Assembly (NCBI RefSeq): GCF_042453785.1
Contig: NC_091676.1
Span: forward strand, 1,681,501 to 1,745,500
Source of the DNA: Malus domestica
Lineage: Eukaryota > Streptophyta > Magnoliopsida > Rosales > Rosaceae
Length of the DNA stretch: 64,000 nt
Direction of reading: 5' to 3'
Below, piece by piece: positions 11 through 50,029 of the stretch. A program made the translations under genes and the position numbers. Within the stretch, counting starts at the first letter, position 1; every line of letters begins with the position of its first letter. The notes under the pieces were generated by a model. The model saw only the letters and a program-made list of their open reading frames with translations. It did not search any database and was not told the origin of the DNA.

Positions 11-469
11 TTGAAAGCTAGAGGTATTATACATTTAGTTTCTTATCCTTATACCCCTCAACAAAATAGGATGGCTGAGAGGAAACATAGGCACATAATT
101 GAGACTGCAATCACACTGTTGAATTCAGCTAAGTTACCTCATAATTTCTGGACACATGCATGTATTCATGCTATCTTTCTCATAAATCGAATGTCATGTT
201 CTTCTCTGGACATGAATTCTCCTTATTTTAAACTCTTTGGAAGTCATCCTGTGTTACATTCTGTTAAAGTGTTTGGGACTGCAGTTTATCCTTATCTTAG
301 ACCCTATGTAAAGAATAAATTGGAACCAAGAACTGAACAGTGTGTTTTTCTGGGATATATGTTGGGTTACAAAGGTGTGGTCTGCTATCACAGGTCCAGA
401 AAGAGGTTGTTTATCTCTAGGCATGTTTTTTCCTTTTCACAAACCATGCATAGTTCAAAGCAGACATGA
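11..469 (+). pseudogene. Copia-1 integrase C-terminal fragment
   Basis: About 150 residues match the end of a Copia integrase core and the region after it: the PQQN..AERKHRH block near residues 17-28, which carries the catalytic glutamate of the DDE triad, then the FLINRM and KVFGTAVYP blocks typical of plant Copia pol. The frame ends at 469, while the pol frame continues in the ORF that starts at 342. The element therefore carries a frameshift near 430-470 and cannot make one polyprotein. The start is a window-edge artefact, not a real start codon. Confidence 0.88.
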
Positions 470-2468
470 TGTTTCATCTTCTTCTACGATCCATCCTATC
501 ATTGTTCCTTCTGTATTTTCTGTTCAATTTGCAAATTCAGCTAGTATGGTAGAATTGGGTGATCATCACGATTTTGGTCTACTTAGATCTTCTGCAGTAC
601 ATACTTCTCATTGTGCACATAACAATGGCTCCTCTTCCAGAGTAACATCTGCTAGTTCATTTTCTTTACAGGCTTCATCAAATTCCACTACTCCACTCTC
701 TTCATCAGCATCTTCACATGCCCTGTTGCCTGTCCCAAGTTTGCCTCACCCTGAGGTACATTCCCATCCTGTTACTTATGCTAATGTACCAGTTAATGAT
801 GACAATATTGTTGCTTCTCCTCTATCCTTGTCAACTCATCCAATGCAAACAAGATTGAAGACGGGAACCATTTCTCGAAAAGATTACACTGCATGTTCAG
901 CTAGTACATCTCTTGAATCTTCTGACAATTCATTTGGTTCGAGTGTTTTTCCTTGTCTTGGTTTCACTGATGTCTTTGATATTAAGGAACCTACAGAACC
1001 ATCATCATATAAACAGGCTGTTACTTGTGAACAATGGAGAGAAGCTATGAAAGAGGAATTCAATGCTCTTCATAAACAAGGAACATGGGAACTTGTTCCA
1101 ATGCCTACTAACAAGAATGTCATTGGCAGTAAATGGGTATATAAGATCAAACGAGATCAGAATGGCAAGATATCAAGGTATAAGGCGAGATTAGTAGCTC
1201 AAGGTTTCAGTCAAGAACATAGTTTGGATTATGAAGAAACTTTTAGTCTAGTGGTCAGACACAGTACTGTTCGGATTGTTCTTGCTTTAGCTGCTACAAA
1301 TAAATGGCCTTTAAGGCAATTTGATGTTAAAAATGCATTTCTCCATGAAGATTTGCAGGAAGAGGTTTTCATGAAGCATCCTCAAGGTTTTACAGATTCA
1401 TCTCATCCTGATTATGTCTGTAAATTGATTAAGTCCCTTTATGGCCTTAAACAGGCACCTCGGGCATGGAATTCTAAATTTACAACATACTTGCCTTTTC
1501 TTGGTTTTGTGGTTTCCGAATCAGATACAAGTTTATTTGTCAAGACCCAAGGTGATGCAGTTGTTATTCTTCTTCTCTATGTTGATGATATAATCATCAT
1601 TGGATCTGATTCAGTATTGGTTCAACAAGTTATTTCCAATCTTAGAGAGGTATTTGATATGAAGGATATGGGGGCTCTCACATTTTTTCTTGGATTACAT
1701 ATTACTTACCAAGTGAATGGCGATTTGTTTCTTTCTCAATCGAAATATGCCAAAGACTTGATAAAAAAGGCGGGTATGACTACTTGTAAGCTTTCTCCTA
1801 CTCCTTGTAAACCTCATACACAACTATTGCGAAATGAAGGAACTCCACTCATTGATCCTACTATTTTTCGAAGTTTAGTGGGTGCACTGCAGTATCTGAC
1901 TTTTACCAGGCCTGATATTGCGTTTGCTGTCAATTATGCATGTCAATTCATGTCCAATCCTACTGATGTACATTTTGAGTTAGTCAAACGCATTCTGAGG
2001 TATTTACAAGGGACTGTTGAGTGTGGTGTTACTTATTCATCTGCTGATACTATGGATCTCACTGCATTTAGTGATGCTGATTGGGCATCGGATATCAATA
2101 CCAGAAGGCCCACAACAGGATATATGGTGTTCTTGGGACAAAATCCAGTGTCTTGGCAGTCTAGAAAACAAGGTAGTGTTTCAAGAAGTTCGACAGAGGC
2201 CGAATATAAAGCTCTAGCCAATGCTACTGCAGAAATAGCTTGGATTCGATTGATTCTTAAAGATTTGAAAGTGTTTCTGCCTTCTCCCCCACTTTTGCAT
2301 TGTGATAATGTTTCCACTATTGCTCTGTGCTCTAATCCTGTTTTTCATACCAAAATTAAACATCTCGATACGGACTTTCATTTTGTTCTTGAACGGGTTC
2401 AAAAAGGAGATTTACAAGTGGAGTACATTTCTTCTACAGATCAGGTTGCTGATATTCTTACAAAATGA
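342..2468 (+). pseudogene. Copia-1 reverse transcriptase and RNase H
   Basis: Contains the RVT_2 type reverse transcriptase of Copia elements: [44 protein letters not shown] and the catalytic LLLYVDDIIIIGSD. The RNase H region has DADWASD, PVSWQSRKQ and SSTEAEYKAL. A Ser/Thr-rich, poorly conserved linker precedes the RT. The frame stops at TGA 2466-2468, where related elements read a glycine codon, so the last roughly 25 residues are cut off. Together with the upstream frameshift this marks a decayed copy. Confidence 0.92.
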
Positions 2469-4978: not shown

Positions 4979-5436
4979 TCATGTAAATAGGTGTTATTCC
5001 AAATTTTTATGAGTGAGAGTTTAAAGATAACAAATTCTATATTGAATTTATATTATTCTTTTAAGTTAGTCAAACAAGAAAATTTACAAATTCTAGAAAT
5101 AAAATTTCATAGTAATTTTAAATTTTCTCATTCAAACATAATGTTAGAGTCATGATGTAACACCCGTCGCTTTTTATTTAACAAAATTAATTATTAGTTT
5201 AACTAGGTTAGGAGGAGAGAGGAGGGTGATTAATTTCATATTACCTAGGGTGTATTTCCAGAGCTTGACAGAGCCAGAAGTTTCCCAGTCACCTTCATGT
5301 ACTGCAACATCGTGTATTTTATCAGAGGCTGCTTTGGGGACGTCGTGGTGCTGGTTGCTGATGACTTTGTACAACTTATCAGCGTTGGCTTTGATCTCTA
5401 CCTCAACCTCCACAGTCAGCTTGCAAGCACCAGCTC

Positions 5437-5679
5437 TGTTGAATATATCAGTCCACCTCATCATTCCAGCTCAGCAATAGTTAGTTAGGCTGTTATCAAA
5501 TTAGTTAGTTAAATAGCTTAGGCTGTAAACTAGTCATGATGGCTATATAAACTGTATTCTCATAGTTGTAAAGATTAATTCAGTATCAATGTAACCAATT
5601 ACTGTCTCTCTCTCTTATTCCCTTTTCTCTCTTCTTCTTCGGTACATGCTCTTTCTGCAACTCTTCATTTCTGTTAACA
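5437..5679 (+). repeat. 5' LTR of the short Copia derivative
   Basis: TGTTGAATATATC...CTGTTAACA, 243 bp, with TATA-like GGCTATATAAAC near 5540 and a CT-rich transcribed part. Identical on reading to 6998-7240. Confidence 0.93.
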
Positions 5680-6077
5680 TGGTATCATCGCCATGGATGA
5701 TCTTTTGACTTCCGTTGTAGTACCTCTGATGGGTAGCTGATCTCTGTGTAAGGTTGATGACGTTTTGCTGTTCTTGGGAGGCTTCGATACTTGTCTATGG
5801 AGTTTTCGTTGGTGATGAAGATCTGTGCGCTCCAGGTGTTTGATAATTTGTGTCAGCCAATTGTCGGAGTTTGCGAGGATTCTGGTATAGGTGTGTCATC
5901 GCCGGAGGTCGGTTCTTGGTGATTTGTTGCTCTTCCGCTGTGGGTGAACAAGCTTGGATGTTCGAGTGCGTTTTCTGGGTTTCAAGATTCAAGTTCTCAG
6001 GTTTTGTTTCTGATTACTAGTTTTCTTTCCAGCATATCAACTATTGTGACTCAGTGAGAATTTTGTTGGGAATTTCG

Positions 6078-6615
6078 GAAGTGTCAAGGCCAATAGCCGT
6101 ATACTTCAGATTTGTGAAGAGTTCAAGGTCGAATGTCATATTTGAGAATCTTTAAGGCAAATTGCCATTTCTCAGTTGCTATAAAATTGTTGATTGTATT
6201 TCCCTAAGGCCGATTGCCGGGATTTTATGTTGTCTAAAAGATTGTCTGTTAATTGGGTTCTCTGTGATTGTATGCTGTACTCCCTTAAGGCCGATTGCCG
6301 GAGTATAAAGCTGTCTGAAAGTTGTTTTCTTGATGCAAAGTGTTTGTTGGGATAGAGAGGCCGATAGCCATTTCCCTTTTATGTTTCACTTCAGAAAGGC
6401 CGATAGCCAGAAGTGTGTGTAGAACATTAACTGATTTAGAAGAATATGAAGGCCGATTGCCATTTCTTCTAAGAGAAAGATTGTTTAGTAGGATTTGAAG
6501 GTCGATTGCCATTGTTGAAAGATTGCTGAAAGATTGAATCTTTGATTCATTATTGGGTATTGTTTGATTGTTTGTTGGGTATTGTACACTCAAGAAGGCC
6601 GATTGCCAAGAGTGT
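6078..6615 (+). repeat. Array of about ten GGCCGATWGCC hairpins in the leader
   Basis: The core recurs near 6088, 6128, 6161, 6207, 6286, 6358, 6397, 6449, 6499 and 6595. Most cores sit between inverted arms of differing sequence: GAAGT/ACTTC (6078-6107), TGAGAA/TTCTCA (about 6143-6173), TCCC/GGGA (6201-6222), TACTCC/GGAGTA (6278-6305), CACTTC/GAAGTG (6387-6415), TTAGAAGAA/TTCTTCTAA (6436-6472) and ACACTC/GAGTGT (6586-6615). The core itself can close as GGC/GCC around a CGATW loop. No reading frame explains it; the arms change while pairing is kept. Confidence 0.8.
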
Positions 6616-6997
6616 CTTAGTTCAAGATTCTGCAAAGTTGTTCATATTCTATCTGCAAAAGTGATGTGTGATGATAATGGGATGAGCAACCTGTTTTAGT
6701 TTTGGCAAGTTTGAAAGGATGATAACTATATGTGGTTGTACCTTATCGCAAAAGAAAATAGTAGCTACAGAGGTGTAGAAATCAGTTTGAGGGGCTGAAA
6801 TTCTTTGGGCAGTTGATGGATGAGTATGAAATTGCATCGTTCTTAAGTAATTTTCAATGCTTGCAGCCATGGAGGATTAATTGGTGAGGAGCAGCAGAGC
6901 TAGGAGTATATGGACAAGAAGGACTTCCTAAGTTCTACATTTCTCAAAGCACTCATTCAATCTCCAACTAGGAAACTCAGTTGAGATTGAGGGGGGA

Positions 6998-7240
6998 TGT
7001 TGAATATATCAGTCCACCTCATCATTCCAGCTCAGCAATAGTTAGTTAGGCTGTTATCAAATTAGTTAGTTAAATAGCTTAGGCTGTAAACTAGTCATGA
7101 TGGCTATATAAACTGTATTCTCATAGTTGTAAAGATTAATTCAGTATCAATGTAACCAATTACTGTCTCTCTCTCTTATTCCCTTTTCTCTCTTCTTCTT
7201 CGGTACATGCTCTTTCTGCAACTCTTCATTTCTGTTAACA
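6998..7240 (+). repeat. 3' LTR of the short Copia derivative
   Basis: Same 243 bp as 5437-5679; followed by the second AGCTC target copy and then the first codons of MLP-A read on the minus strand. Confidence 0.93.
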
Positions 7241-7258
7241 AGCTCCACTCACTGCCAT

Positions 7259-8954
7259 TTTCTTTTATTTGTTATTAGTAATATGTGATTAGTCTGGGGA
7301 AATTGTAGGAGACGTATACTAACCTACAGGTTTCAACTTCTTATATAGAGTCGCAAAGTTGTAAATTAACATGTTATAAACTGATAGTTATGGAGGCAGC
7401 GTGTGGATATGATCCGATCACTTAATTAAATAGTTATATAATAATATTGTGTCTGTGGATCTTCCACGCAGAGTTTTATTATTACACCTACCAAACTTAA
7501 GAGCACCCGCAAACTTGATGAGACATATATCAACACGTGAGAACAATGATTGATCAACATTACCTCCATAGTATTATTAGAGTGAATGATTGTATGATAT
7601 TAATTAAGCATTAAGATCTTGGGAACTTTAATGAAAAATTTCTGGTATTATTCATTTTAATAAAAAATTATATTTTTACATTAAAAAGTCAATCTTAATA
7701 CTATTCACTTTATTCTTTATTTTGTCCTTATTGTTAAAACTCAAAATTTTCAAGCCATTTTCATTAATTTTCTTTAAGATCTTTTGATTTGGCATGCGGA
7801 AGTGTGTGTTTGTATATTATATAGGGATAATACTAAGTTAGGTTCATATTATCTTAACTAGTGATAAATTAAGGGTTCTTTCGAGTTATTCGAAACAGTG
7901 GTTTATATTATCTTGACATACGTGCAACCAAACACAAAAAAGAGAGGCTGTATTGGCTTCCAAAATAAAACTAGATGCAAACAATAATGTGGAGTTCCGG
8001 TTACTCTTTTGGAATCAACCAAAGCTGAATCATTGATGCCTACTTTCAGAAAGTTTTCCTTTTCTGCATGCAGATCTTTTCAATGGATGTAGCTCGTTTT
8101 GGGAGGTAACCACTTACTTCTTCGAGTTCATTAATTTTAGTCAATCTAAAGTAATTTAATTAAGTTTATTAACCTTACAATTTTGAGCGTTAATACTCAA
8201 TTTTGGAGGAATTGCATCACGTTTACGTAAAGGCAATCGAAATAATAGAGTGGAATTAAATTTCAATTACGGAATACTCCAGTATTTACTAAATATTGGA
8301 GAATAAAAAATTTGATAGCACCCACTCAATTTTTTTAATCCAATACTAATTCATACTCAAATTTTGGAATAAAAAATCTAATACTAATTCGTACTCATCA
8401 AATGAAAGTAAAATCTAATTCTTCATTTTTTAAGTACTTAATTATTGTAATGTGAGTAAACGCATGAAAATCATGATTTAGAATATTTTCTAATGCAGAC
8501 TCTAAGTCTGAAATTGAAATATAAAGATAGCCCTTGAAGGGTCGATTCTGGTTAATCTAGGCATGAGAATACGAAAAAATACACACAAAGTTATTAAGAT
8601 AGCTTTCCTTTTTTATATTTTAGCGATAGTCTAGTCTAATCCAACATTAGACCACATTCAGTAATTCAAACTAAGAGAAGGGGGATTCAAACTTGGCTAC
8701 ACTCGGATTCTCATATTAGGATTGATTCTGAAGTAAAAGAATATAACCAAGTTGATCAAGAAATTTCAAAATTTCTAATGGAAACTTATTAGAATTTTTT
8801 TGTGAATGTGTTGAAGTTGGGATTTTTTTGTTTTCGTATTGAAGTTGGGATTGAAACAGAAGATAAAGCATAATATAAAGTTTCATTACAATTAACAACA
8901 TGTTCTATTAAATGAAAGTGACTAAATATTGAAAAACATGCTACGCCGCGTTGA
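7259..8954. other. MLP-A promoter region, MITE and RALF-A 3' flank
   Basis: No gene seen. 7259-7560 is the MLP upstream region, also present at 11130-11350 and 55796-56025, with TATATAA at 7341-7347 on the minus strand. 7621-7775 is a MITE. 7800-8100 is conserved MLP far-upstream sequence (also 12080-12380, partly 23640-23760). 8370-8950 is AT-rich and matches 50500-51125, the flank of RALF-B. Confidence 0.6.
7621..7775. mobile_element. Mutator-like MITE, about 155 bp
   Basis: Starts GGGAACTTTAATGAAAA and ends with a near-inverse TTTTCATTAATTTTC. It is flanked by a direct repeat of at least 8 bases, AAGATCTT (7613-7620 and 7776-7783). Relatives lie at 33812-33966 and, on the other strand, at 22215-22366 and 22478-22633. 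Confidence 0.72.
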
Positions 8955-9302
8955 TCAACTCCGGCAACGAGCATTAGCACTGCATCCACGGTTGTAGGGG
9001 TTGCTCTGATTCTGAGCACCCGGCTTGCAGTTGTTGGAGGAAGCACCTCTCTGAGAGCAAGGAACAGTGTTTCTCTGCAGCGCTTCATAGCTTATGTTTC
9101 GTGAGGTGGCCAAGATGCGCCTGCTAATCTCCGAGTCCATGCCAAACTCATCATCACGATCATCCATGCACTCTGCTACAGAACCCTCGCAGCGAGGTCT
9201 CACTGGAGCCCAGCTCACCCCATGATCGCCGCCTGCATCAACGGAGATGACCAGAGCGGCCGCGAAAATCAACGAAAAGATAATCGCAGAGGAATTAGCC
9301 AT
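8955..9302 (-). CDS. RALF-A: rapid alkalinization factor-like prepropeptide
   Basis: Complete intronless frame of 115 residues. Residues 1-23 are a hydrophobic signal peptide. An acidic propeptide follows, then the subtilase (S1P-type) cleavage motif RRIL at 61-64. The mature peptide of about 51 residues has the four RALF cysteines at 82, 92, 107 and 113, and the conserved NPYNRGCSA block. RALF peptides are secreted ligands of FERONIA-type receptor kinases and act in the apoplast on growth and immunity. The receptor-contact motif is usually YISY; here it reads NISY (69-72). The copy at 51129-51476 is nearly identical. MLP-C starts 0.8 kb to the right on the same strand. Confidence 0.95.
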   Translation of the reverse strand: MANSSAIIFSLIFAAALVISVDAGGDHGVSWAPVRPRCEGSVAECMDDRDDEFGMDSEISRRILATSRNISYEALQRNTVPCSQRGASSNNCKPGAQNQSNPYNRGCSANARCRS

Positions 9303-10129
9303 AGGTTTTGGTACGGTCTGTGTTTTTAGCTGCCAACTTGTATTTTGTTGTACGCCTGTTTAATTACAGAGGTAGAGAGAGGGGGCGGCAAGAAAGAGAA
9401 GAGATAATCGGTGAAATTTTGATGTGTATATTCTTTCACCCTATTGTGCTAATTATAGTAGTAAAAAGGGAAAATTTTTGTCTTTCAAGTAATTCATAGG
9501 AGTTAGGGAAAATCCTTGTCTCTCAAGTAATCCATCTAAAATAGGACATTATGTAAAAGATATTATACAATTCCATAAGGATTTACACAATCATATTCCT
9601 AATTAAATTAAGACTGTGACATATTTAAATTTGGTTAAATAAAAATTGGATGTTGATTTCTTTAAGGAGGTAATTACTTAATTGACATGCTTTAATTCAA
9701 CCTTATTCCAATTGCAACAAAGACAGCTGAAATTGAAATAATTCGTGATTTATTCAAAACCTAACAAGAAAACAAAATCAACAACTACTACAAAATATGC
9801 TCGTAGAGATTTCCGGGATGTTTCTGCTCTTAAGTGTTTTTGCTAAAAGCTCTTTTATCAGTACAAGGTTGAGACTTTAGTTAAAAAACTAAGTTGTTCT
9901 CGAAAAAATATAAGCATGCCAATAGATTGAACTTGTTTACAACATCAGCATTATAATAATATCACACTCAATTCATTCTTGCTCATAGAATTAAAGACAA
10001 ACCAAATCAGAAACCGAAATAAGCAACAGTGCTAACTAGCTTGCTCAGCTCTCAGGTCTTTATTCTTGAAGATAGTAATATTACTCAATGTTCCATATCG
10101 TATGTATGCATAAATCTTGTGCTTGGCGC
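9303..10129. other. RALF-A promoter and MLP-C 3' flank
   Basis: 9303-9660 is the upstream region of RALF-A, alignable with 51477-51800 next to RALF-B, and includes a GA-rich 5' leader near 9370-9400 and a TATA-like TATAAT on the minus strand near 9455. From about 9690 it is the conserved MLP 3' flank. No further gene seen. Confidence 0.55.
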
Positions 10130-11128
10130 TTATTCCTTGATAAGATGTGCATCAACATCTTTAATGACATTGACCAGAAAGCTGAGGTACTTCTGTGGAG
10201 GCGGATCGTTCTCGTTGAGTTTTTTATATTCTAAAGTAATTTTCACAGAACCTCCTTCACTATTTGGAGTGACCTGGAAAATGATCTTGTAGCTTTTGTA
10301 ATTGTCCAGCACATGTGATCCTTCCAACCCTGTAAGACTCACCCGCTTGTTTGCTTCATCTATTTCCACCTTTTCCTTGTAAGTCTCGACATTTCCATCT
10401 ACACGTCACATGGAAGAGTATAATTATACAGCTATCCATGGTCCGATCCTTTAAATATTCATCGTGTGGTAATGTAAACCCTATGCATGGAGGTCTTGTC
10501 ATTTTTAATTCTAAAAGTACATATATATGAGGTAACGCAAACCCCTAGCTTGCTAGGTTTCAAGTTAGCATGCCTAATTATTTTGCAGCAGGTTAGTCTG
10601 TGGTATTAAAAAAAAAATGTTAGTCATAAGTATAACCTTAACAATGTTTGGTTGTAATTTGCTTGCTCCTTCATGCAATCTCACAGTCTCACTACCACCT
10701 CCACAAGTTTGCGGAGTAAGCATCTTCATTCGCCCCAAAAGGGCTTCGTTTCACTATCTTTTACACAGCGGAGGCTGTATAAAGCTACGACAGAACAAAA
10801 TTCGGCACCCGGGAGAGGGACGATCTCCAGAGATTCTTTAACATTTTTTGTATTTCTTTTTTTGTTGAATCATTTCTTGTAATTTAAACATTTAGCGTCA
10901 TCTTGTAATTTAAATATTACCTATGGTGTATTTCCAGAGTTTGACAGAGCCAGAAGTTTCCCAGTCACCTTCATGTACCGCAACATCGTGTATTTTATCA
11001 GAGGCTGCTTTGGGGAAGTCATAGTGCTGGTTGCTGATGAATTTGTACAGCTTATCAGCGTTGGCTTTGATCTCTACCTCAGCCTCCATAGTCTCCAGCT
11101 TGCAAGTACCAGCTCCACTCACAGCCAT
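10130..11128 (-). CDS. MLP-C: major latex protein-like (Bet v 1 superfamily), intact
   Basis: join(complement) exon 1 10921-11128 and exon 2 10130-10398, phase-1 intron 10399-10920 (GTAATATT...GTGTAG), 158 residues, the usual MLP length. Starts MAVSGAG. The glycine-rich loop EGDWETSGSV lies around residue 55, the intron falls right after WKYTI, and the C-terminal helix ends DVDAHLIKE. Predicted cytosolic, ligand-binding single-domain protein with no signal peptide. The upstream region carries TATATA on the minus strand at 11222-11228, like MLP-A and -B. About 90% similar to MLP-B with a two-residue change near position 12 (LETMEAE versus LTVEAE). With MLP-B, the best candidate for a working gene here. 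Confidence 0.93.
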
Positions 11129-11355
11129 TTTATTTTATTTGTTCTTTATAATATGTGAATAACGATAGTGTAAGTCTGGGGAATTGTAGGAGACGTATAC
11201 AAACCTATAGGTTTCCACTTCTTATATATAAAGCCATGTTATAGTTACGGAGGCAGTATGTGGATATTATCCGATCACTTAAACAGTTAAATGATAACAA
11301 TGTGAGAGTGGATCTTCCACGTAAAATTTTATCACCACTACACACCTACCAGAAT

Positions 11356-11960
11356 AAAACTTTTTTCTTTTTTTTTTAATTAAAAGAAGAAATGTCAATT
11401 TCATTCCGCATTATTATCATGGAACAAGACATTATTTTGAATACATTGAAGAAGAAAAAAAAATATATATAATAAGTTAGAGGGGACATGAAGCCTAGCC
11501 CTAACAAGAAGTAGAAAACTATTTGAAACAACAATCAATTAAGACAACTCCTAAGAGAAACAAGAATTTGGAAACACCGAAAGATTATGAGCAAAAGTCA
11601 TAACTGCACATGACGGATAAGAATCACACAAATAATGAAAACTAACATGATCAACATAATAGTTTGCTAAACAATTTGTTACATGATTTCCTTCCCGATT
11701 AACGTGAGAAAACTGAACATGCATGGAAGAGAGAATGGTATAGTAATTTGTCAAATCAACCGATAAACTATGGTGCATTGCCAAACAAGAATTACACTCA
11801 TTTCAAAGAGAATGCTGCTAACCCCTTTCGAAAGCAATATAAATAACATGAATAATAGCTTTAAGTTTCACTTCCAAAGCAGTAACAATGCCAAAAAAAT
11901 CTTGTATTAAAGCATCAAAGAGACCCAAGTGATCACGAAAAATACCACAAAAACCAGCAA
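11356..11960 (-). pseudogene. Truncated LINE-like insertion with RNase H fragment
   Basis: Compared with MLP-A, the MLP-C upstream region carries about 600 extra bases here. On the minus strand they encode, in broken frames, pieces of a plant retroelement RNase H (GFCGIFRDHLG near 11940, HVNREGNHVTNCLANY near 11700) and end in an A-rich tail (T run 11356-11382 on the plus strand). This fits a 5'-truncated LINE copy. The target duplication is not clear (ACCAG is a candidate). Confidence 0.6.
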
Positions 11961-12876
11961 ACTTGATGAGACATTTCAACACGTATATATATAAGAGGAT
12001 CAATGATTGATCAACTTTACCTCCATAGCATTATTGGAGTGAATGATTGTACGATATTGAGGCGTTTGTTTGGATTTGGCACGAGGAAATGTGTGTATAT
12101 ATTGTATATATAGTGATAAAACTAATTTAGGTTTATATTACCTTAACTAGTGATAAAATTAAGGGTTCTTTAGAGCTAATAGAAATCAATGGTTTATATT
12201 ATGTTGACATAACCTAGAGAGAGAAAAAAAAGAGGTTGTATTGTCATCAAAATAAAATTATGACACAAACAAATAATGTGGAGTTCATGTTACTTATTTG
12301 GAATCAATCAAAGCTGAATCATTGATGCCTAATTTCAGAAAAGTTTTTCTTTTCTGGATGCAGCATCTTTTCACAGGATTTTTTTTTCGGTTGTTGTATT
12401 GTGAAGGAACTTCTTGGATAGTTTTTTTTCCCTTTTACACTAGCTTAGTGTCTTCCTGCCAAAATAATGACACAGAAATTTTCATCAAAAGGGTTGGCGA
12501 TGTCGGGCAGCAAATGTAGTTTCCCGTGAAATTGCAAAACTTGCTCACAATCTGATGATTTTGTCTCTTGGGTTGGCTCTCCCTTCTCCTAACTGCTGAA
12601 GACTGATGAAGCAGAAATTTAATCATCAATGAATTTCCTTGACTAATCCATTATCTTTCCGTTGCCCGTTCTCTTTGATTTGTTCATAATCCGATTATTG
12701 TTCATTCCAATTCCAAGCGCGTAAACGTGCCCTCATAGTTATGGACTTGTTCGCATCGTTTAATTTTCCTTGAATACCTGACTTTGTCGCCTATGGTTTC
12801 ACAAGAAAATAATCTCTTTGTTAAACCAGAAAATTTAACGGTTCATTAATTAGCAACTATTTCATTTTTTAACAAT
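11961..12876. other. MLP-C far-upstream region
   Basis: 11950-12380 aligns with 7520-8100 upstream of MLP-A. From 12380 to 12876 I see no gene. A short minus-strand frame near 12435-12629 and a weak RNase H-like plus-strand string near 12500-12620 are too degraded to call. Confidence 0.45.
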
Positions 12877-12880
12877 ATTT

Positions 12881-13257
12881 GGCTACTCAAAGGATGAGTA
12901 AGAGTTCCTACTCAAACCTATTTGTTGCCGATCCATAGAACTTCATGTTTATAATAGAGCAGTTCATATTAGAAATCACTTTATAAAAATTGTCTCTACA
13001 AAAAATCAATTAGACTAAGGTCGTTTAGTAGTCGAACTGTGAAAAAACAAAGGAAAGAAATTGGTGAAAACATTACAAACCATTTATGTATTTACTAGAA
13101 TAAATTGACTAAATGACCTTAATTTTAATTCAATTTTTGCAGAAATGATCTCCACAGTGTGATTCATAATATGAACAGTTCTGTTCATAAGCACAAACTT
13201 CAGTGATTCGAACATGAAAAATTTTGAGTGGGAGTTCTTACTCATCTTTGAGTAGCC
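12881..13257. mobile_element. Foldback MITE
   Basis: Terminal inverted repeats of about 35 bp: GGCTACTCAAAGGATGAGTA at the left end mirrored by TACTCATCTTTGAGTAGCC at the right end, with further inverted matches inside (GAACTTCATG, GTTCATATTA). It carries no frame. Target-site repeat not resolved. Confidence 0.65.
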
Positions 13258-13579
13258 AAGCATTGTTCTTCATTTTTTTTTATGTCAGTAATAGTCTGAC
13301 AAAGAACAATAATAAGTAAACTGTGAAAAAAAAAATATTTTACAAATGGAAAAACAAACAAAATGAAAAAGAAAATAAATTAATATTTTAAGTTGTTTTC
13401 ACTTTGAAAATTTTGTTTTATTCATTCCCTCTTTATCTAATTCTTAGCCTTCATGTATTGAATTATGCATTGTATTGTAGAATCCAAAAAAAAAAAAAAA
13501 AAAACTTTTTTGGAATCCATATGTGTATAAGCATGAAATTATAGCCCACCCATATGAAAATTTTGACTCCGCGGTTGCA

Positions 13580-13745
13580 TGTAAGGATAAACATGCCAAT
13601 AGATTAAACTTATTCACACTATAACATAAAAATGCTATTACACTCAATTATAGAAGTTGCTCAAAAGACTAAAGACAGTCCAAGTCGGAACTAAACAACA
13701 AGGCTATAGCTTGCTCTTCTTCCAGCCTTTATTCTTGAAGATATA
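13580..13745 (-). pseudogene. MLP-D 3'-flank remnant (exon 2 missing)
   Basis: This 165-bp stretch aligns with the 3' flank of MLP-A and -C (GCCTTTATTCTTGAAGATA and the preceding 130 bases), but no exon 2 follows before Copia-2 begins at 13989. The matching exon 1 relic lies beyond Copia-2 at 22010-22208. Exon 2 was therefore lost, apparently before the retrotransposon landed between the two relics. Confidence 0.6.
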
Positions 13746-13988
13746 AGATTATCTCCCCTCTTAATCTCTCTTTCCATTCCTCCTCTCCTATTTAAATGTT
13801 TACCGCGTCAACATCTTGTTTTAAATTTATTATATAGAGAAAAAGACAAAAAGAAAAGTGTAAGATGAGGAGGGAGAATGAAATGGTATTGGAAGGTAGA
13901 GAATCCTACTCCAAGTGTTCGTTAGGGGAGAGGGGGACCCTGAGAGCAGAAGACTCTTCATCTTCAGGTTTGAGAGTAAACGCTTTAC

Positions 13989-14278
13989 TGTTGAAGATAT
14001 ATAGTGATTGACACATCATCATAAGTGCTACATCAGCTATTGGAGTTAGTTAGTTTTTTAAGAATCAGTTACACAAGTGGCTTAGCTGATAAGCTACATG
14101 TGCAGACTATATAAAGGAATCAGGGGTCTTTTGTATCTCTCTTCATCCTTATGAAATAACAAAACTTTTACTCATTTCTTTCTCTAGTTCTCTCTCTATT
14201 CCTTTTGATCTTTCTCTCTCTATTCCTTTGATATTGCTTGCATACATTCATCTGTTAGTTGTTAGATGAATGTTATCA
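13989..14278 (+). repeat. Copia-2 5' LTR
   Basis: TGTTGAAGATATATAG...GTTATCA, 290 bp, with TATA-like GACTATATAAAGG near 14107 and a CT-rich 5' transcribed part. Confidence 0.93.
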
Positions 14279-14489
14279 TGGTATCTTCGCCGAGGGTTCG
14301 ATCTCGTGGTGTGTATTTCCGCTGTGTTGTGCCAAAAGATTGTCTTGATTGCTGTGCTGTGCTTTAGTGGGTTAATGAGCTTTTGGCGTTTGGGAAGTCA
14401 GACTTCGAGTTTATCAGGTGTTATTTTTCTTTTTGCACTCCAAGTGTGTGTGTAATTGTCGCAATGATGAATCTTTTGTGAAAGACTAA

Positions 14490-14721
14490 AAGTTGAAGGC
14501 CGATAGCCATTTCTTGATGTTTGGAATATGATATTGAATGTCAATAGCCATTTCTTGATGTTTGGAGTATGATATTGAAGGCCGATAGCCATTTTTCTGA
14601 TTGAATAATTGTTGAAGCGTTTTCTGTCAAAGCATAAAGGCCGATAGCCATTGCTTTTGTTTGAGTGTTTGTTGGGTTTTTTCACAAGAACAAGGCCGAT
14701 AGCCAGTAATGTGTGTTCTTG
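14490..14721 (+). repeat. GGCCGATAGCC hairpin array in the Copia-2 leader
   Basis: Five copies of the same core seen in the 5437-7240 element (about 14495, 14537 degraded, 14579, 14636, 14692). The last two have perfect flanking arms of unrelated sequence: AAAGCA/TGCTTT (14629-14657) and CAAGAAC/GTTCTTG (14685-14721). It lies between the primer-binding site and the gag start at 14788, so it would be in the genomic RNA leader. Confidence 0.75.
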
Positions 14722-14787
14722 GAGTTATTATACTTCTTGAAGATTGTTTGAGTACTTGATTTCTTGATTCAGTTTCTATCAACAATA

Positions 14788-16040
14788 TGGCGTTTAGTTC
14801 TATCAAAATTGAAAGTCTTTTGGGCATGATCACTGTTAAGTTGAAAGAAGATAATTTTGTCAAATGGGATTATCAGTTTCAATAGGTGCTTAAGGGGTAT
14901 GATTACTTTGATTTCTTTAGTGGGGAGTCTCAGTGTCCTCCAAAGTTTGTAATTAATACTGAGACTGGGGTCACTAAAGAAATTACTACTGCATATAAAG
15001 ACTGGGTTAAAACAGATGTCTCTCTATTGAGTTTGTTGATTGCTACACTTTCGGATGAAGCTATAGACTATGTCATTGGGTGTAAAACTTCTCAAGAAGC
15101 TTGGAAATCTTTTCAGGAACGATATGCATCTGTATCTGTTGTCCGGGTTAATCAACTCAAGACTGAGTTTCATACTGTACATAAAGGTGCAGATTATGTT
15201 GACAAGTATTTGCTTCGATTGAAGGTTATCAAGGATCAACTGGTTGCTGCAAGGGAGAGAATCACTGAGAATGATTTGGTCATTGCTGCTTTGTCTGGTT
15301 TACCTCCAGAGTTTGAAATGATCAGGACAGTAATCTTAGCAAGAGACACTCTGATTTCAATGAAAGATTTTCGAGCTCAACTAATTGGGGCTGAAGGCAG
15401 TATTGAGTCTCGACTGACAACTTTATCAAGTTCTATGGCTGCCATGTATGTTCAGGGCAATGGCTCGAATACACAGGGATCTCAGGGAAATACTCCAAGT
15501 TATGAACAATGGGAGAGTTCAAATGCACAAAGGTCTCAAGGGAGGAATAATTACAATAGTGGTAATAACAACAGGAGGTATAATGGGAATAATTTCAACA
15601 ATCGAAAATTCTCTGGTGGTTATAATGGTGGGAATAATAATTACAGGCCATATTCTACTTTTGGGAATAATGGGAAAGGTGTTCAAAATGGAGGTTCTCA
15701 AAGTTATTTTTCTGGTAATGGAAGCAAACAAGGAAACACTTGGAATGGTGATACAAATTACAGAAATGCTATATCTCCTGAATGTCAAATCTGCTATAGA
15801 AGAGGTCATACAGCACCAAATTGTTACTTTGGAGCTGATAACAATCAATCATCTGGAGGGATCTTGGTATGTCAGATATGTGGGAAAATAGGTCATCGGG
15901 ATTTGGAATGCTTTCATAGAAATAACTTCTCATATCAAGGCAGTGCACCACCCACATCTCTTGTTAGGATGGCTGCTCAAGGCTCAAATGTTGCAACTGA
16001 AGACTCAAATATCCATGGTTTTTCAGCTGCTGATACATAG
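14788..16040 (+). pseudogene. Copia-2 gag with two CCHC zinc knuckles
   Basis: The likely start is ATG 14788 (MAFSSIKIESLLGM); an in-frame TAG at 14883-14885 interrupts it after 31 codons and an open frame follows to 16040. The N-terminal part resembles the UBN2-type Copia gag (TSQEAWKSFQERY, LPPEFEMIRTVIL). A Gly/Asn-rich spacer follows (residues about 195-290 of the open part), then CQICYRRGHTAPNC and CQICGKIGHRDLEC, two zinc knuckles that bind RNA in the virus-like particle. The TAG at 16038 sits where a tryptophan codon is expected at the start of the protease. Confidence 0.88.
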
Positions 16041-18095
16041 GTAGTTGACACAAGTGCAACTCAACCACATGACATCACATGTCGAAGTTTTAAATCATAT
16101 CACTCCTTATAATGGTGATGCCACGATCACTGTTGGTAATGGAGAAGGTTTGGTGGTTAAAAATATTGGTTCTTCTGTTCTTAACACTCAACAAAAGTCA
16201 CTCATTTTGCAAAATGTGCTACATGTTCCACACATTACAATGAATTTGTTGTCTGTTAAGAAATTATGCAGAGATAATAATTGCTGGTTTGTATGTGATG
16301 ATCTGATCTTCTTGATACAGGACAAAGCAACTCGAAGGATTGTGTACCAAGGCCAGAGTGATGATGGGGAGCTCTTCAAGATACCAATAACAGTGCTGTC
16401 GAGATCCAGAGTACCAAGTATTGAAAGATGTGCTGCTTTTGTTAGAAAGAAGCTAAAGACTGCAGTTTGGCATAAAAGGTTGGGTCATCCATTTGAAGAA
16501 GTGCTTACTGCAATGTTGAATAAGTCTAAAGTATTAGCTAGTATAGATTTGTCTCCATCTATATGTACTGCTTGTATTCAAGGCAAAATGACTAAGTTGC
16601 CTTTCTCTGTAAGTCCCGATAGGTCAAAAGTTGTATTTGAAAGGATACATTCAAATATATGGGGTCATTCACCGCATAGGTCAATAGAGGGTTATAGGTA
16701 TTACATAAGCTTTGTAGATGACTGCTCTCAATTTGTATGGATTTTTCAGATGGTTAATAAATCCGATGCTTTTCCAATCTTTACCAAGTTTCTTACATTT
16801 CTTGAGAATCAGTTTAATGCTTTTGTTAAAGTTCTTCAATCAGATGGTGGAGGTGAGTATATGAGTAATGTGTTTAGACAGTTGTTGGAGATAAAAGGAA
16901 TTATACACCAAGTTTCATGTCATCATACACCACAACAAAATGGTCTTGCTGAACGAAAACATAGACATTTGGTTGAGATTGCTATTAGTTTGCTATCAGA
17001 TGCTCAATTACCTTCAGCATTCTGGTATCATGCTTGTTTTCATGCTGCATTCTTAATCAATAGGATGCCATCTAGAACTTTGAAGATGTAGTCTCCCTAT
17101 CAAGTTGTGTTTGGTTGTGTTCCTGAAGTGCAGCATCTTAAAGTCTTTGGTACTGCAGTTTATCCTCTATTGAGACCATTTAATAAAAATAAATTGGAGC
17201 CATGGTTAGCTCAATGTGTATTTCTTGGTTTTGCTCATGGATATAAAGGAGTTATTTGTAATGATATCAAGACTAGAAAGTTCATTCTGTCAAGGCATGT
17301 AGTACATGATGAAGATGTATATTCGTTTAAACAAGTTTTGCCATCTAAGGATTCTACACCTACAAATAGGTGTTCTCAGACACTTGTTTTGATTCAGTTA
17401 CAAGTTCCAAGTGAAAAAGTCCTGCCTCATACACACATACAACATGATTCACAAGCAGCTAGTTCTATACATATATCAGCAAGTGATACTGGTTCACATC
17501 ACAGTATTCCTGTAAATGGTGACAGTATAAATATGGTTGGTGAATTGAATGTTTCTAGTTCGGACAATACACAGGTGATTCAACCTAGTGATCAGGATAC
17601 AAATTCGACTGATACCACTACTCTACATGCATCTCCAAGCTCTTCCCATCATCACTCTGGTACACAATCCTTGTTGCATGTCCACTCCGAGTCACAACTT
17701 GAGGTAATCCTTCCTGATTTATCTCCATTTGATCTCATTTTACATACTGCACCATCGACTTACTCAATGGTCACTAGATTGAAGAGTGGAACAATTGAGA
17801 GACAAAATTATGCTGCTTTAATAGCACAATGTCCTGAGCTTTGTTCTCTCCAAATCACTAATGAAGAACCTTTCACGGGTGGCTATTCCTTTCTTTCTGA
17901 GATCACTGATGCTTCAGAACCGAAGACATTTCGGAAAGCGGCTACTAATCCACAGTGGCAAAAGGCAATGCAGGAGGAATATGATTCACTTCGAGCACAA
18001 GGAACTTGGCTATTGGTTCCTGCACCTGAAGATAGAACAATTGTAGGAAGCAGATGGGTATACGAAGTGAAGAAAAACCCCGATGGCAGTGTCTC
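16041..18095 (+). pseudogene. Copia-2 protease remnant, integrase and RT start
   Basis: After the 16038 stop, protease-like sequence (VVDTSAT) runs into an integrase: zinc-binding HKRLGHP...CTACIQGK, then the catalytic core with SNIWGHSPH, FVDDCSQFVW, LQSDGGGEY and QQNGLAERKHRH. A TAG at 17089-17091 interrupts it, and 17107-18095 continues with KVFGTAVYP, a variable linker and the RT start (WVYEVKKNPDGSVS). At 18095 the frame is cut by the solo LTR; the last five bases, GTCTC, are its target site. Confidence 0.88.
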
Positions 18096-20150
18096 TGATG
18101 TGAAAATTACTTGACACACAAATTAAACCCTATTGATGACAATTGTAGCAAAGATGTTAGTAGGGATCGTTCTAAACCGGGAATTAACTAGGGCTGCTAA
18201 TCTACTCAAATTAAACTCTAAAACACTAAACTAGACTTAAAAACACAAGAATAGACTCTATAGACTCTAAACTGACCTAAGACACTCAAATCTGCAAAAC
18301 TAAGTGAAATTGACTCAATTCTAAACCTAACAAGTGAATTGGACGAAATTAAAACTTACTTTGACTCAAAAGATTAAAAGAAAACAGATTGTAACTTAAC
18401 TAACTTAGAAAACACTTAAAAGACTCAAAACAGCACAATACTAACAATTAGACTCAAAACAGATTCTAGAGATGAAATTGGACGAATTTAAGACTAAACT
18501 AAGACCCAAACAATGGTTATGGACTAAACCTAACCTATATTGACTCAAAACACTCTAAAGAACCTAATTAGGACAGATTCTGACCTAATAACATAAAACA
18601 GAAAAGGGTGTTTGATTTCTGACGAAATTGAATTAAAACTAAACAAATTGCAAATCAAAGTAAACTAAAACGAAATTAAGATGAATTCAAGGGTGAAAAG
18701 CTAGTTAGAGGATCCTTCTCCACACATGAACATATGCAACATAAATCGATTTCCAGTATTGTTTCTTTAAACCATGAACGACAATGCCCCAAATTAATCG
18801 TGAATGCACAAATTAACTCTCAGATTTCCCTAAATTCATTGAATTGGATGAATGCATGCAACAACCCAAATTATTCTTCTCAAGTTCCCTATATGAACAT
18901 CATGATAGAGATACATTCAAAGATCATTAAATTCCATGGAAATCATAAGCATTGACAAGGCAATTATAACTATGAACTGCATGATACTTTTGCCAAGAAT
19001 CTACTTAACACGATTGTGACTAACAATCTCCACTACTTGTAATTATAAGTTTCTAACGATTAGGTGAAAGTCCCTTATAATTTAGCATCAGATTCAAGCA
19101 TGCAAACTAAGTAGGCCTCCTTAATCAACACACAAGAATAAGTTATCAATCAAATAGATAAGTAAATCGCATTCATGTTTTACGAAACAATAACTGAAAG
19201 GAATCAATTCATATTAACATATGTCCATGGCTTCAAATTCACCACTAACTAATAAGAGTTTAGTTCCACATGTTCATAACAATTGAAACGCAAATTAAAA
19301 TAAACATCGAAACTGAAACGAGGGAAGAAAAAACTATGAAAACTCCCAAGGATGCAGATGGCTTGCGCACAAGGCCCTCCTTCATCAATGGAATGCACGA
19401 CAAGGTTCTCCTTCTTCTCCAAAAGGTGCGGCAGAGATGTATATGGATGTAGGATGGTGTTTTGTGATGTAGAATGGTGATTAGGGTTGCGGCAAGGTGT
19501 TTCTGAATGGTGTGAAGGGTGGTGACAAATTTAGGCCTTAAAAACACATATATATAGGCATGGCAAAGCTAGGGTTTTCACAAAATTTGATGGGAAAAGG
19601 TTAGGGTTTTGGAGATAAAAGGCTTGGCCCATTCAAAGGAGAAAAGAATTAGGGTTTTATGCAGATTCCTAGGCTTCTAGAACACTAGGTGCGGCACAAC
19701 CCTAGGGTGGATGGACTAGGGTTTAAATTTAGCAGAAAATAAAGGATTAGGGCCCTAGGGTGCGGCATGGGCTTAGAACAAAGCTGAAAAAGGATTAGGA
19801 AACTTCAAATTCAAGAGTAGAAACTTTCAAGAATGGAAACCTCCAAGAATAGCAACTTCCAACTTTAGAAACTTTGGTTTCCAATTCTGAACTCTTTGCT
19901 CTTCATGTTCATTTCTTCATTTCTTCCCTCCTTTGATCTTCAATTTCGTTCATCCCTTTGGCTCCAAGCATGTGATATCCATTTTATGCTCAAAACTGCT
20001 TCAAAAGGCTCCAAATTGCACTTTCTCGCCAACTTTGTCATTTGGACCTAAAAACACACGAAAATAGCTTAAAACACTATAATAACCACAAACTAACTAT
20101 AAAAGTGCAAGAAAACAAGCTAACTAAGTTGCATAAATATGCTCCTATCA
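18096..20150 (-). mobile_element. Solo LTR nested in the Copia-2 RT gene
   Basis: A 2,055-bp insert flanked by GTCTC on both sides (18091-18095, 20151-20155), with ends TGAT...ATCA. Read on the minus strand it begins TGATAGGAGCATATTTATGC, a start I associate with long-LTR Gypsy-type elements in plants. No coding domain is present, so it is best explained as a solo LTR left by LTR-LTR recombination. Removing it and one GTCTC joins the RT frame exactly. Confidence 0.87.
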
Positions 20151-20155
20151 GTCTC

Positions 20156-21509
20156 CCAGTATAAAGCAAGGCTTGTAGCTCAAGGGTTCTCCCAAGAACA
20201 TGGTATTGACTACTTGGACACATTTAGTCCTGTTGTTCGACATACTACTGTAAGGATTATTCTTTCTTTAGCTGCCATGAATCATTGGACTCTTCGACAA
20301 TTAGATATCAAGAATGTTTTTCTACATGGAGATTTACAAGAAGAAGTTTATATGCAGCAACCACAAGGGTTTATTGATCCATCATATCCTTCTCATGTTT
20401 GCAAATTGGTCAAGTCATTATATGGCTTGAAACAGGCTCCACGCGCGTGGAATTCAAAGTTTACAAGTTATTTGACAGTTATGGAGTTTCATGCCTCAGC
20501 TTCTGATACAAGTTTGTTTGTCAAGAAGGATGACTCTGATATCATCATCTTATAACTTTATGTTGATGATATCATCTTAACTGGTTCTAATCCTTTGAAG
20601 ATCCAAAAAGTGATTCAAGAATTATCTGAGGTATTCGAGTTGAAGGATATGGGACAGCTTACATATTTTTTGGGTTTACAAGTTCAATATAAAGCGGATG
20701 GCAGTGTTTTTGTTAATCAGTCTAAGTATATCAAAGATCTTGTCCATAAAGCAGATATGGAATCGTGTAAACCAGCAACCACTCCGTGTAAACCTCATCA
20801 TCAAATGTTACACTCTGAGGGACAATTGTTGACATATCCAACTTCCTATAGAAGCATTGTGGGATCTTTACAATATCTGACCTTTACTAGGCCTGATATT
20901 GCCTTTGCTGTAAACACAGTATGTCAGTTTATGTCCTCACCAACTGATGTTCATTTTGGCGTTGTTAAACGCATCATTCGTTATCTTCAAGGAACCATGA
21001 ATATTGGTATTACTTTTTCTGCAAACACAGTTTCAAAGCTTACTGTGTTTTCTGATTCTGATTGGGCTGCAGACTTGAATACTTGTCGGTCTATCACTGG
21101 TTATGTTGTGTACTTAGGCAATAATCCAATTTCTTGGCAATCGAAGAAACAAAACTCGGTATCCAGGAGTTCTACTGAGGCTGAATATAAAGCCTTAGCA
21201 CATACTGCTGCAGACATAGCTTGGATTCGCAATATATTGAAGGATTTGGATGTACTTTTGGATGCTCCACCAACAATTCACTGTGACAATATGTCCGCTA
21301 TTGCCTTAAGTGCCAATCCGGTGTTTCATTCAAGAATCAAACACCTTGATACAGACTACCATTTTGTACGCGAACGAGTGCAGCAAGGCGATCTGGAGGT
21401 GTTGTATATCCCAACTGAGGAGCAAACTACCGATGTTCTTACCAAAGGTCTTCACAGTCCTTCACTTGTCAAACATTTTTACAATCTCAAGCTGGAAAAT
21501 CCCGGTTGA
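20156..21509 (+). pseudogene. Copia-2 reverse transcriptase and RNase H, 3' part
   Basis: Resumes at [15 protein letters not shown], then [12 protein letters not shown] and [15 protein letters not shown] at 20553-20555 falls two codons before the catalytic YVDD, where relatives read leucine. The second half (20556-21509) has the YVDD box and RNase H blocks SDSDWAADLN, ISWQSKKQ and SSTEAEYKALAH, ending in the lineage-typical C-terminal tail before the polypurine tract. Confidence 0.9.
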
Positions 21510-21522
21510 GATTGCGGGGGGA

Positions 21523-21813
21523 TGTTGAAGATATATAGTGATTGACACATCATCATAAGTGCCACATCAGCTATTGGAGTTAGTTAGTTTGTTAAGAATC
21601 AGTTACACAGGTGGCTTAGCTGATAAGCTACATGTGCAGACTATATAAAGGAATCAGGGGTCTTTTGTATCTCTCTTCATCCTTAATGAAATAACAAAAC
21701 TTTTACTCATTTCTTTCTCTAGTTCTCTCTCTATTCCTTTCGATCTTTCTCTCTGTATTTCTTTGATATTGCTTGCATACATTCATCTGTTAATTCTTAG
21801 ATGAATGTTATCA
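21523..21813 (+). repeat. Copia-2 3' LTR
   Basis: 291 bp, TG...CA, about nine differences from the 5' LTR, followed by the second TTTAC. Confidence 0.93.
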
Positions 21814-22009
21814 TTTACATCCTACACCATGCTAATAATATCCACCAATTCTCTATTTTATTTAAAAATAAATAAAAAATATATATGAGGTAACGCAAGC
21901 TCTAGCTAGGTTTCAAGTCTACCATGTTTATTTTGTAGCAAGCAAGTGGAATTAATTAAGAAAAATTTCAGTTTGGGTTAGGAGGATAGAGGAGGGTGAT
22001 TAATATTAC

Positions 22010-22208
22010 CTTTGGTGTATTTCCAGACTTCACAGAGCCCGAAGTTTCCCAGTCCCCTTCATTTACTGCAACATGGTGGTACAGTATCAGAGGCTCGGGA
22101 ATGTACACGTGGTGCTGGTTGCTAATGACTTTGTACAAACGATTTATCAGCGTTCGCTTTGAACCCCCCAGTCTCCAGCTTGTAATCACCAGCTCCACTC
22201 ACAGCCAT
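22010..22208 (-). pseudogene. MLP-D exon 1 relic
   Basis: Starts ATG 22208 (MAVSGAG...KLET as in MLP-C), then loses about 15 bases around the AEVEI block and shifts frame; later parts match MLP in other frames (LYKVISNQHH, VNEGDWETSGSVK). The donor site GTAATATTA at its left end is kept. No exon 2 follows. The upstream MLP promoter block can be recognised at 23461-23760, separated by 1.2 kb of inserted MITE-rich sequence. Confidence 0.82.
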
Positions 22209-22214
22209 TTTTTA

Positions 22215-22633
22215 TAAAGGAAATTAATGAAAATGATTCGAAAATTTTGAATTTTAACTATAATAATAAATAAATGGTAAAGTAAATAGTACCATGATTG
22301 ATTTTTAGTGTAAATATATTATTTTTCCTTAAAATAAACAATATCAGAAGTTTTTCGTTCAAATTCTCTTTTTTTTAATTAGTAATTAATATTAAAGTTC
22401 ATCTAAGATTATTTTTTAAAGGAGATATATATTAAAAGTATCAAATAGAAAAACAAGACAGCATCATTTAAAAAAAGGAAAACTAATGAAAATTGCTTGA
22501 AAACTTTGAGTTTTAACGATAAAGACAAAATAAAAAGTAAAGTAAATAGTACCAGGTTTGACTTTTTAATGTAAAAATGTGGTTTTTCGTTAAAGTGAAC
22601 AATATCGCTGGTTTTTCGTTAAAACTCCCTTCA
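22215..22633. mobile_element. Two MITE copies of the GGGAACTTTAACG family
   Basis: 22215-22366 and 22478-22633 are each reverse-strand relatives of 33812-33966 (AAAATTAATGAAAA at one end, GTTTTTCGTTAAA at the other; inside, AAAGTAAATAGTACCA). They sit side by side in the former MLP-D promoter. Confidence 0.6.
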
Positions 22634-35974: not shown

Positions 35975-36567
35975 TGTTGGTATATGGTCCAGCCCATGAT
36001 CAATGTTCTAGATTATTCTAGTAAGCAAGAGATGAGGCTGAAGCTTGCTAGACAATTCTAGAATGTTATTAAGTTGATGGAAGAAGCTAGAGAGTACTAG
36101 CTTCCTTGGTTGCAAATGGAAAGATCTAGAAGCTACAAGTATATGGCTAGTCTAGATTTTTCTATACTAGAGGTTTGAAGAAGGAACTAGAAACTAGTAG
36201 AATGCCAAACCCTCACCTATAAATATGGGTGTGATGTAACCAATTGAGAACCAAGAGTGAGTAGCAAAGGATCAAGTCCAAAGCTAGAGTTCCACTCCAA
36301 GAGTGAGAGTGAGAGTGTTCCACTACACATTGTGTGAGTGAAGTTTAGAGTGATAGAAAGTGTGTGTTATACTTTCTTGTATCCATCAAGCCTTGTCTTT
36401 GGCTTGGTAAGACTACTCTTGTTGTATTCATCTTTTTCATATAGTGAAGATTGATCCTTGTTTGGTGGACGTAGGCATAAATTGCCGAACCACATAAACT
36501 TTTCTTGGCGTCCATTTTCTACTTTACCTTGTGCATTCTCTATCTTGTAGTACCGACATTCCTAACA
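35975..36567 (+). repeat. Copia-3 5' LTR
   Basis: TGTTGGTATATGG...TTCCTAACA; TATA-like CTATAAATATGGG near 36218. Confidence 0.94.
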
Positions 36568-36602
36568 AGTGGTATCAGAGCCCGGTTGGCTCGTACTACG
36601 AG

Positions 36603-49402: not shown

Positions 49403-50029
<627 letters not shown>

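Follow-up and report, generated by a model that had tools for sequence, protein, structure and literature searches.

The window analysed here, 64,000 nucleotides of the Malus domestica genome, contains at 5437-7240 a complete LTR element without genes, which we named element A. Its 5′ LTR (5437..5679, + strand) has TG...CA ends and is identical at 243 of 243 positions to the 3′ LTR (6998..7240, + strand), and a 5-bp target-site duplication, AGCTC, is found at 5432-5436 and 7241-7245. Because the two 243-bp LTRs are identical, element A appears to be a recent insertion. Directly after the 5′ LTR lies TGGTATCATCGCC (5680..5692, +; TGGTATCA at 5680), which we take to be the primer binding site, and GAGGGGGGA at 6989..6997 (+) is presumably the polypurine tract. 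The interior (5680-6997) holds no open reading frame of at least 120 amino acids and no gag match. With two LTRs, TG..CA ends, a target-site duplication, a primer site and a polypurine tract, element A is an LTR retrotransposon; its interior without gag or pol and its short family place it among the non-autonomous short LTR elements of the TRIM/LARD type. The element A LTR gave 45 matches, which form 15 LTR pairs 1.07-1.83 kb apart (counted by eye, with 40 of 94 candidates scored). Since the pairs are short and the 45 matches listed include none spaced at about 5 kb, the length of a full element, family A is a standing gene-less family.

The preliminary description of this locus reported about ten copies of GGCCGATWGCC within 6078-6615, and seven pairs of arms that differ in sequence between copies and still pair around the core. 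Both observations held. We located nine matches with at most two mismatches within 6088-6607 (six exact, two with one mismatch and one with two), which start 39-97 bases apart, and a tenth, weaker core, GGTCGAATGTC at 6127, with three mismatches. The whole window contains 19 matches against 6.8 expected, a number that none of 100 shuffles reached. All nine hairpins were annotated on the + strand. In the first (6078..6107), GAAGTGT and ATACTTC enclose the core GGCCAATAGCC (6088), and in the second (6142..6175) TTGAGAA and TTCTCAG enclose the core variant GGCAAATTGCC (6156). These are followed by TCCC/GGGA around the core at 6208 (6201..6222), TGTACTCC/GGAGTATA around 6289 (6276..6307), GGGA/TCCC around 6359 (6349..6376), CACTTC/GAAGTG around 6398 (6387..6415) and TTTAGAAGAA/TTCTTCTAAG around 6451 (6435..6473). 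The eighth hairpin (6484..6519; core GGTCGATTGCC at 6500) has weak arms with several G.U pairs and a score of only 10, and the ninth (6586..6615) has ACACTC/GAGTGT around 6597. The leader thus has the seven arm pairs named before and the GGGA/TCCC pair around 6359, two of these eight being only 4 bp long. The summed arm score of the ten sites (the nine cores together with the 6127 variant) was 140.5, compared with 101.1 (sd 8.6) after swapping right flanks between copies and 99.9 (sd 8.3) after shuffling flank letters; none of 2000 swaps and none of 2000 letter shuffles reached it. The region folded as a whole (6050-6640) was no more stable than its dinucleotide shuffles (z +1.2; 88 of 100 shuffles were at least equally stable), and we dropped global folding as evidence for structure. 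The structure signal in element A is therefore local and centred on the cores.

The preliminary description had placed the array in a retroelement leader, which is that of the gene-less element A; arrays also occur in related copia elements with gag. Element B, a copia element in the same window, has its 5′ LTR at 13989..14278 (+) and its 3′ LTR at 21523-21814, with two repeat pieces of 98% and 96% identity. Its array (14498..14704, +) lies between the primer site (14279) and gag and consists of five cores, four exact and one variant, at 14498, 14539 (the variant, TGTCAATAGCC), 14580, 14639 (AAAGCA/TGCTTT arms) and 14694 (CAAGAACA/TGTTCTTG arms). For these five sites alone the arm pairing was not significant, the score being reached by 283 of 2000 swaps and 160 of 2000 letter shuffles. 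Gag (14886..16040, +; Retrotran_gag_2) is followed by the integrase part of pol (16045..17091, +; rve) and the reverse transcriptase part (20139..21509, +; two ORFs; RVT_2), and this order, with integrase before reverse transcriptase, is that of Ty1/copia elements. The roughly 2 kb in front of the reverse transcriptase (18115-20138) have no listed pol ORF and probably represent inserted DNA. CCHC zinc knuckles are the usual RNA-binding part of Gag, and the translated gag of element B shows what we take to be two such motifs. Of a third copia element, C, a pol part lies in the window (11..2468, +), and its leader precedes the window (L096:3818-4350). The element C gag is 44% identical to that of element B, and its leader contains no GGCCGATWGCC and carries, between primer site and gag, an array of another loop sequence, ACGAA, with four GGCACGAAGCC-type cores (one of them GGCACAATGCC) and one more degenerate copy. 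A further copia element at 36531-40615 has long open frames and no array; its leader is very short, with TGGTATC at 36570. Elsewhere in the window, five TGGTATC words spaced by about 345 bp at 60387-61765 point to a tandem repeat, and an open frame at 49436-50029 presumably resembles a plant atypical dual-specificity phosphatase. Rfam covariance models searched at E up to 1 over 5000-22500 gave no match within the arrays; the sole match there was to the MIR2275 precursor at 8279-8359, below threshold (E 0.27; 27 bits, where the cut-off is 60.5).

The genome (651 Mb, 19 contigs) contains 676 exact GGCCGATWGCC cores, whereas the reversed pattern occurs 104 times; core pairs 20-50 nt apart number 150, and those of the reversed pattern 16. 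We fetched all loci among the first 100 listed exact cores (contigs C1-C3) and the 38 listed pair loci on C4-C14; single cores (L001, L003, L004) and sequences overlapping L009 (L006-L008) were left out. Arrays were present in 63 of the resulting 91 sequences, two of them from the window, with 341 cores at no more than two mismatches. A separate dispersed repeat (L003, L031, L032, L040, L046, L052, L056, L057) seems to combine one exact GGCCGATAGCC with a near-match that follows 439 nt downstream; it shows no gag match and is not an array.

For the arm pairing, 303 core-like sites were reduced to 53 by removing near-duplicates. Own arms outscored swapped arms with z 5.6, and none of 50,000 permutations did as well; stricter thinning gave z 4.5 for 40 sites (0 of 20,000) and z 3.8 for 28 sites (4 of 20,000). 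The excess was present separately in loci with gag (z 5.4) and without (z 4.2), and an earlier arm test had given z 6.2 (0 of 20,000) for 50 sites, selected out of 109 in 20 loci and the window, a few of them outside arrays. As a control, 290 pseudo-cores were drawn from these loci, at 60-330 nt upstream of the first core, and they had no arm excess (z -0.8). Folding energies of the 53 sites likewise favoured own over swapped flanks in the sense strand (z -6.0, 0 of 20,000), and the core hairpin was part of the minimum-energy fold at 45 of 53 sites, compared with 39.1 on average with swapped flanks. The antisense strand also beat its swaps (z -5.4), so that the strand cannot be assigned from pairing alone. 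Of the 53 sites, 22 had strong arms (score of at least 12), where 8.4 were expected; arms are therefore common, not universal. Among 32 seeds, the layer adjoining the arms had G.T in 12 and A.C in none, the swaps giving 5.9 and 1.8 of 22 seeds, an excess that hints in the same direction as the substitutions in the core described below.

The core consensus is AA-GGCCGATWGCC-(A/G), and of the 53 sites 52 have A at -1 and 48 have A at -2. We located 263 distinct orthologous sites by their flanks alone. Substitutions in their stems that leave a G.U pair (C to T at 3, 10 and 11) numbered 33 and those that abolish pairing (G to A at 1, 2 and 9) 13 (p 0.005), whereas loop CpG changes were 16 and 16. 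We regard this bias as supporting evidence only, because the copies are related, the contexts differ and the contrast between stem and loop has a Fisher p of 0.06. Comparison of orthologous hairpins yielded 26 clusters, 19 with a stem and 7 without. In the 19 stem clusters 1260 of 1420 cells pair, compared with 1243 in shuffles, and none of 2000 shuffles reached the observed number, in a control that ignores relatedness. The covariation for which the preliminary description proposed a test is thin: nine cells with a double change, in four clusters, stand beside 65 single changes compatible with pairing and 160 unpaired cells, 93 of which fall in a single cluster for which a long stem had been set. 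We dropped orthologous covariation as the chief proof since divergence is too small. A MAFFT alignment of the hairpins, intended for a covariance model, had no usable pair columns because the distance from arm to core is variable.

These data also bear on an origin of the arrays at the level of DNA, in which slippage would have spread quasi-palindromes that template switching corrected, or the sites would bind a protein as DNA, in either case without RNA function. Some units do look duplicated (in L022 and the ACGAA arrays), and the nearly equal strength of antisense pairing is as such an origin would have it. We nevertheless consider it quite improbable, since each copy has its own arms around a core that stays fixed, pseudo-cores of the same loci have no excess, the C-to-T changes that keep G.U prevail in the stem while the loop CpG shows no such bias, and the place and orientation before gag are fixed (see below). 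The claim of a selected RNA structure is supported, because own arms exceed swapped ones over many loci, pseudo-cores are null, GGC and GCC are kept while the loop varies and G.U-keeping changes prevail, although strong arms characterise only the 22 sites mentioned.

Three loop classes lie between GGC and GCC, CGAT, CGATW and ACGAA, all of which contain CGA. The preliminary description had noted that variants keep the GGC/GCC stem of the core, and this extends to loops differing in both length and sequence, as expected of a stem. The ACGAA pattern (GGCACGAAGCC) formed 170 close pairs genome-wide and the CGAT pattern 31, against 0 for the reversed pattern in each case. Eight ACGAA loci contain 41 cores, with a gag match within the stretch at four (L096, L099, L102, L104) and none at the other four. 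The outer flanks of 22 non-redundant ACGAA sites showed no pairing beyond chance (z -1.7). The constant unit is thus the small GGC-loop-GCC hairpin, and outer arms belong to one loop class, CGATW. Three further leaders upstream of gag carry GGCCGATGCC, with a 4-nt loop, and one of them (L105) has GGCCGATTGCC too; both sequences also occur in 7 of 33 gag-bearing loci. Some GGCACGAAGCC copies (L103:467-533, with the locus turned motif-sense, and similar places) lie in head-to-tail repeats of 28 bp; the stretch shows neither primer site nor gag, and these places may be another kind of locus.

Alternatively, the hairpins could be dimer-linkage elements or initiate reverse transcription, the loops or GGCC of two genomic RNAs pairing with each other. 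The array follows just after the primer site, and passages of a retroviral study place dimer linkages nearby and allow GACG-loop hairpins a part in them (PMC516450). We find this reading unlikely: judged from the sequence, no loop class is self-complementary, and up to nine sites seem more than a dimer link would need. A kissing dimer through GGCC was not preferred, as the ACGAA class lacks this tetramer.

We compared the positions of listed arrays with 103 of 148 gag matches, namely those beginning near the N terminus of the query, taking one place each for most ACGAA and CGAT loci and leaving out the listed C14 pair places as well as those ACGAA places that are listed from C10:26.7 Mb onwards. 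In all 23 listed arrays with gag within 900 nt, the array lay upstream of gag and in sense, and none lay otherwise. Gag followed within 900 nt on the same strand in 14 of 48 CGATW, 3 of 47 ACGAA and 6 of 23 CGAT listed array loci, low fractions that do not mean absence, as only relatives of the element B gag are in the gag list and the lists of arrays are themselves incomplete. TGGTATC precedes gag within the stretch examined in 28 of 33 gag-bearing loci. The array is thus a lineage trait of related copia elements, located between primer site and gag. LTR elements keep their packaging signals in the RNA region between these two landmarks, and leader hairpins near the primer site and upstream of gag would, by position, be candidates for a packaging signal of the retroviral type (psi). 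A Gag tree was built from 26 of the 33 gag-bearing loci, the other 7 being without the N-terminal part or 100 amino acids; the leaders with only CGAT loops (L105-L107) are outside it as their gag is too short. On this tree the label CGATW or ACGAA needs a single change, and 1 of 500 shuffles was as low; the ACGAA side (3 rows) has support of 94/80. That the loop class follows Gag may be plain common descent. The lineage may be Ale (Retrofit), as a study of Rosaceae elements (PMC5659011) suggests.

Arrays differ between loci with and without gag, a status defined by gag matches alone. In 27 of the 63 array loci gag follows the array and the median number of cores is 4, while the 36 gag-less loci have a median of 6.5 (one-sided rank test, p 1.6e-6, which overstates independence because the 36 loci represent few families and include fragments). 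This difference speaks against hairpins that serve translation or RNA fate by recruiting a host RNA-binding protein or by ribosome shunting or internal entry past upstream AUGs, since copies are more numerous where there is no gag to translate. A host reader would also not be expected to see loop identity separate along the Gag tree. In the seven gag-bearing loci examined, the leaders are 449-555 nt long and contain 3-10 ATGs, which fits such a role, as do the structured leaders that control translation in plant pararetroviruses (PMC5902531); on balance we hold it to be improbable.

We propose that the leader hairpins are probably a multi-site packaging signal for the Gag of the element itself, through which gag-less elements would be packaged in trans. 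In each hairpin, GGC would pair with GCC and present a loop of 4-5 nt, CGAU, CGAUW or ACGAA, each containing CGA and a single unpaired G; in the CGAUW class a copy-specific outer stem would hold many of the hairpins, connected by a one-sided internal loop (the consensus AA before the core). Assembly of Gag on several hairpins would then select genomic RNA for virus-like particles, and gag-less elements, by keeping or multiplying the hairpins, could be packaged by related copia elements. A landing platform with several sites for Gag is the simplest account because hairpins with CGA loops lie in the packaging-signal region, are multiplied in gag-less elements and change their loops along the Gag tree. 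Going further, the loops (CGAU, CGAUW, ACGAA) on the GGC/GCC scaffold might be a lineage-specific address code co-evolving with Gag, with gag-less parasites outbidding their hosts by copy number in a packaging arms race; this extension we put forward only tentatively.

Packaging signals with GACG hairpins in retroviruses also sit between primer site and gag. In passages of PMC516450, the GACG tetraloop hairpins of alpha- and gammaretroviruses, including MLV, are likewise small leader hairpins with a conserved loop and a role in packaging. Those described here, known from sequence alone, differ in belonging to plant copia elements, in standing up to nine in a row and in having a 3-bp GGC/GCC stem, copy-specific outer arms and lineage-specific loop classes. 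Closest in logic to trans-packaging is the barley copia pair BARE1/BARE2, in which gag-defective BARE2 keeps its packaging and dimerisation signals and its RNA is packaged by BARE1; the passages on this pair contain no array of repeated hairpins, unlike the elements here (PMC3735527). For Ty1, the passages at hand place packaging determinants in the first few hundred nucleotides, together with a pseudoknot, and report gene-less mini-Ty1 moved in trans (PMC4974528); kissing loops of the 5′ region are also described (PMC5454406), and the passages of PMC4974528 on this cis-acting region include no repeated unit, unlike the arrays. The Rosaceae TRIM elements AACA3/AACA4, with LTRs of 203-244 bp, lengths of 2.1-2.7 kb and primer sites like those of Ale copia elements, are short and gene-less like element A, and differ in their LTR ends, AA..CA instead of TG..CA, in the passages concerned (PMC5659011); the word "hairpin" does not occur in the main text of that paper. 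Our searches of open-licence PMC papers turned up no account of comparable arrays in a plant retrotransposon, and the three papers containing one of the 11-mers were poultry and avian studies by title. In the small RNA viruses MS2 and satellite tobacco necrosis virus, the dispersed packaging signals are degenerate hairpins, several in number, that the coat protein recognises; they lie scattered along the genome, unlike the hairpins here, which are confined to the leader.

Rather little is known about the selection of genomic RNA by plant LTR elements, or about the way in which gene-less TRIM-like elements come by a partner. With a short, countable motif whose loops are specific to lineages, packaging partners would become predictable from sequence, and the hairpin gives a defined RNA for binding assays. 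If the address code were true, a packaging arms race between copia elements and their gag-less parasites would be readable from genomic DNA.
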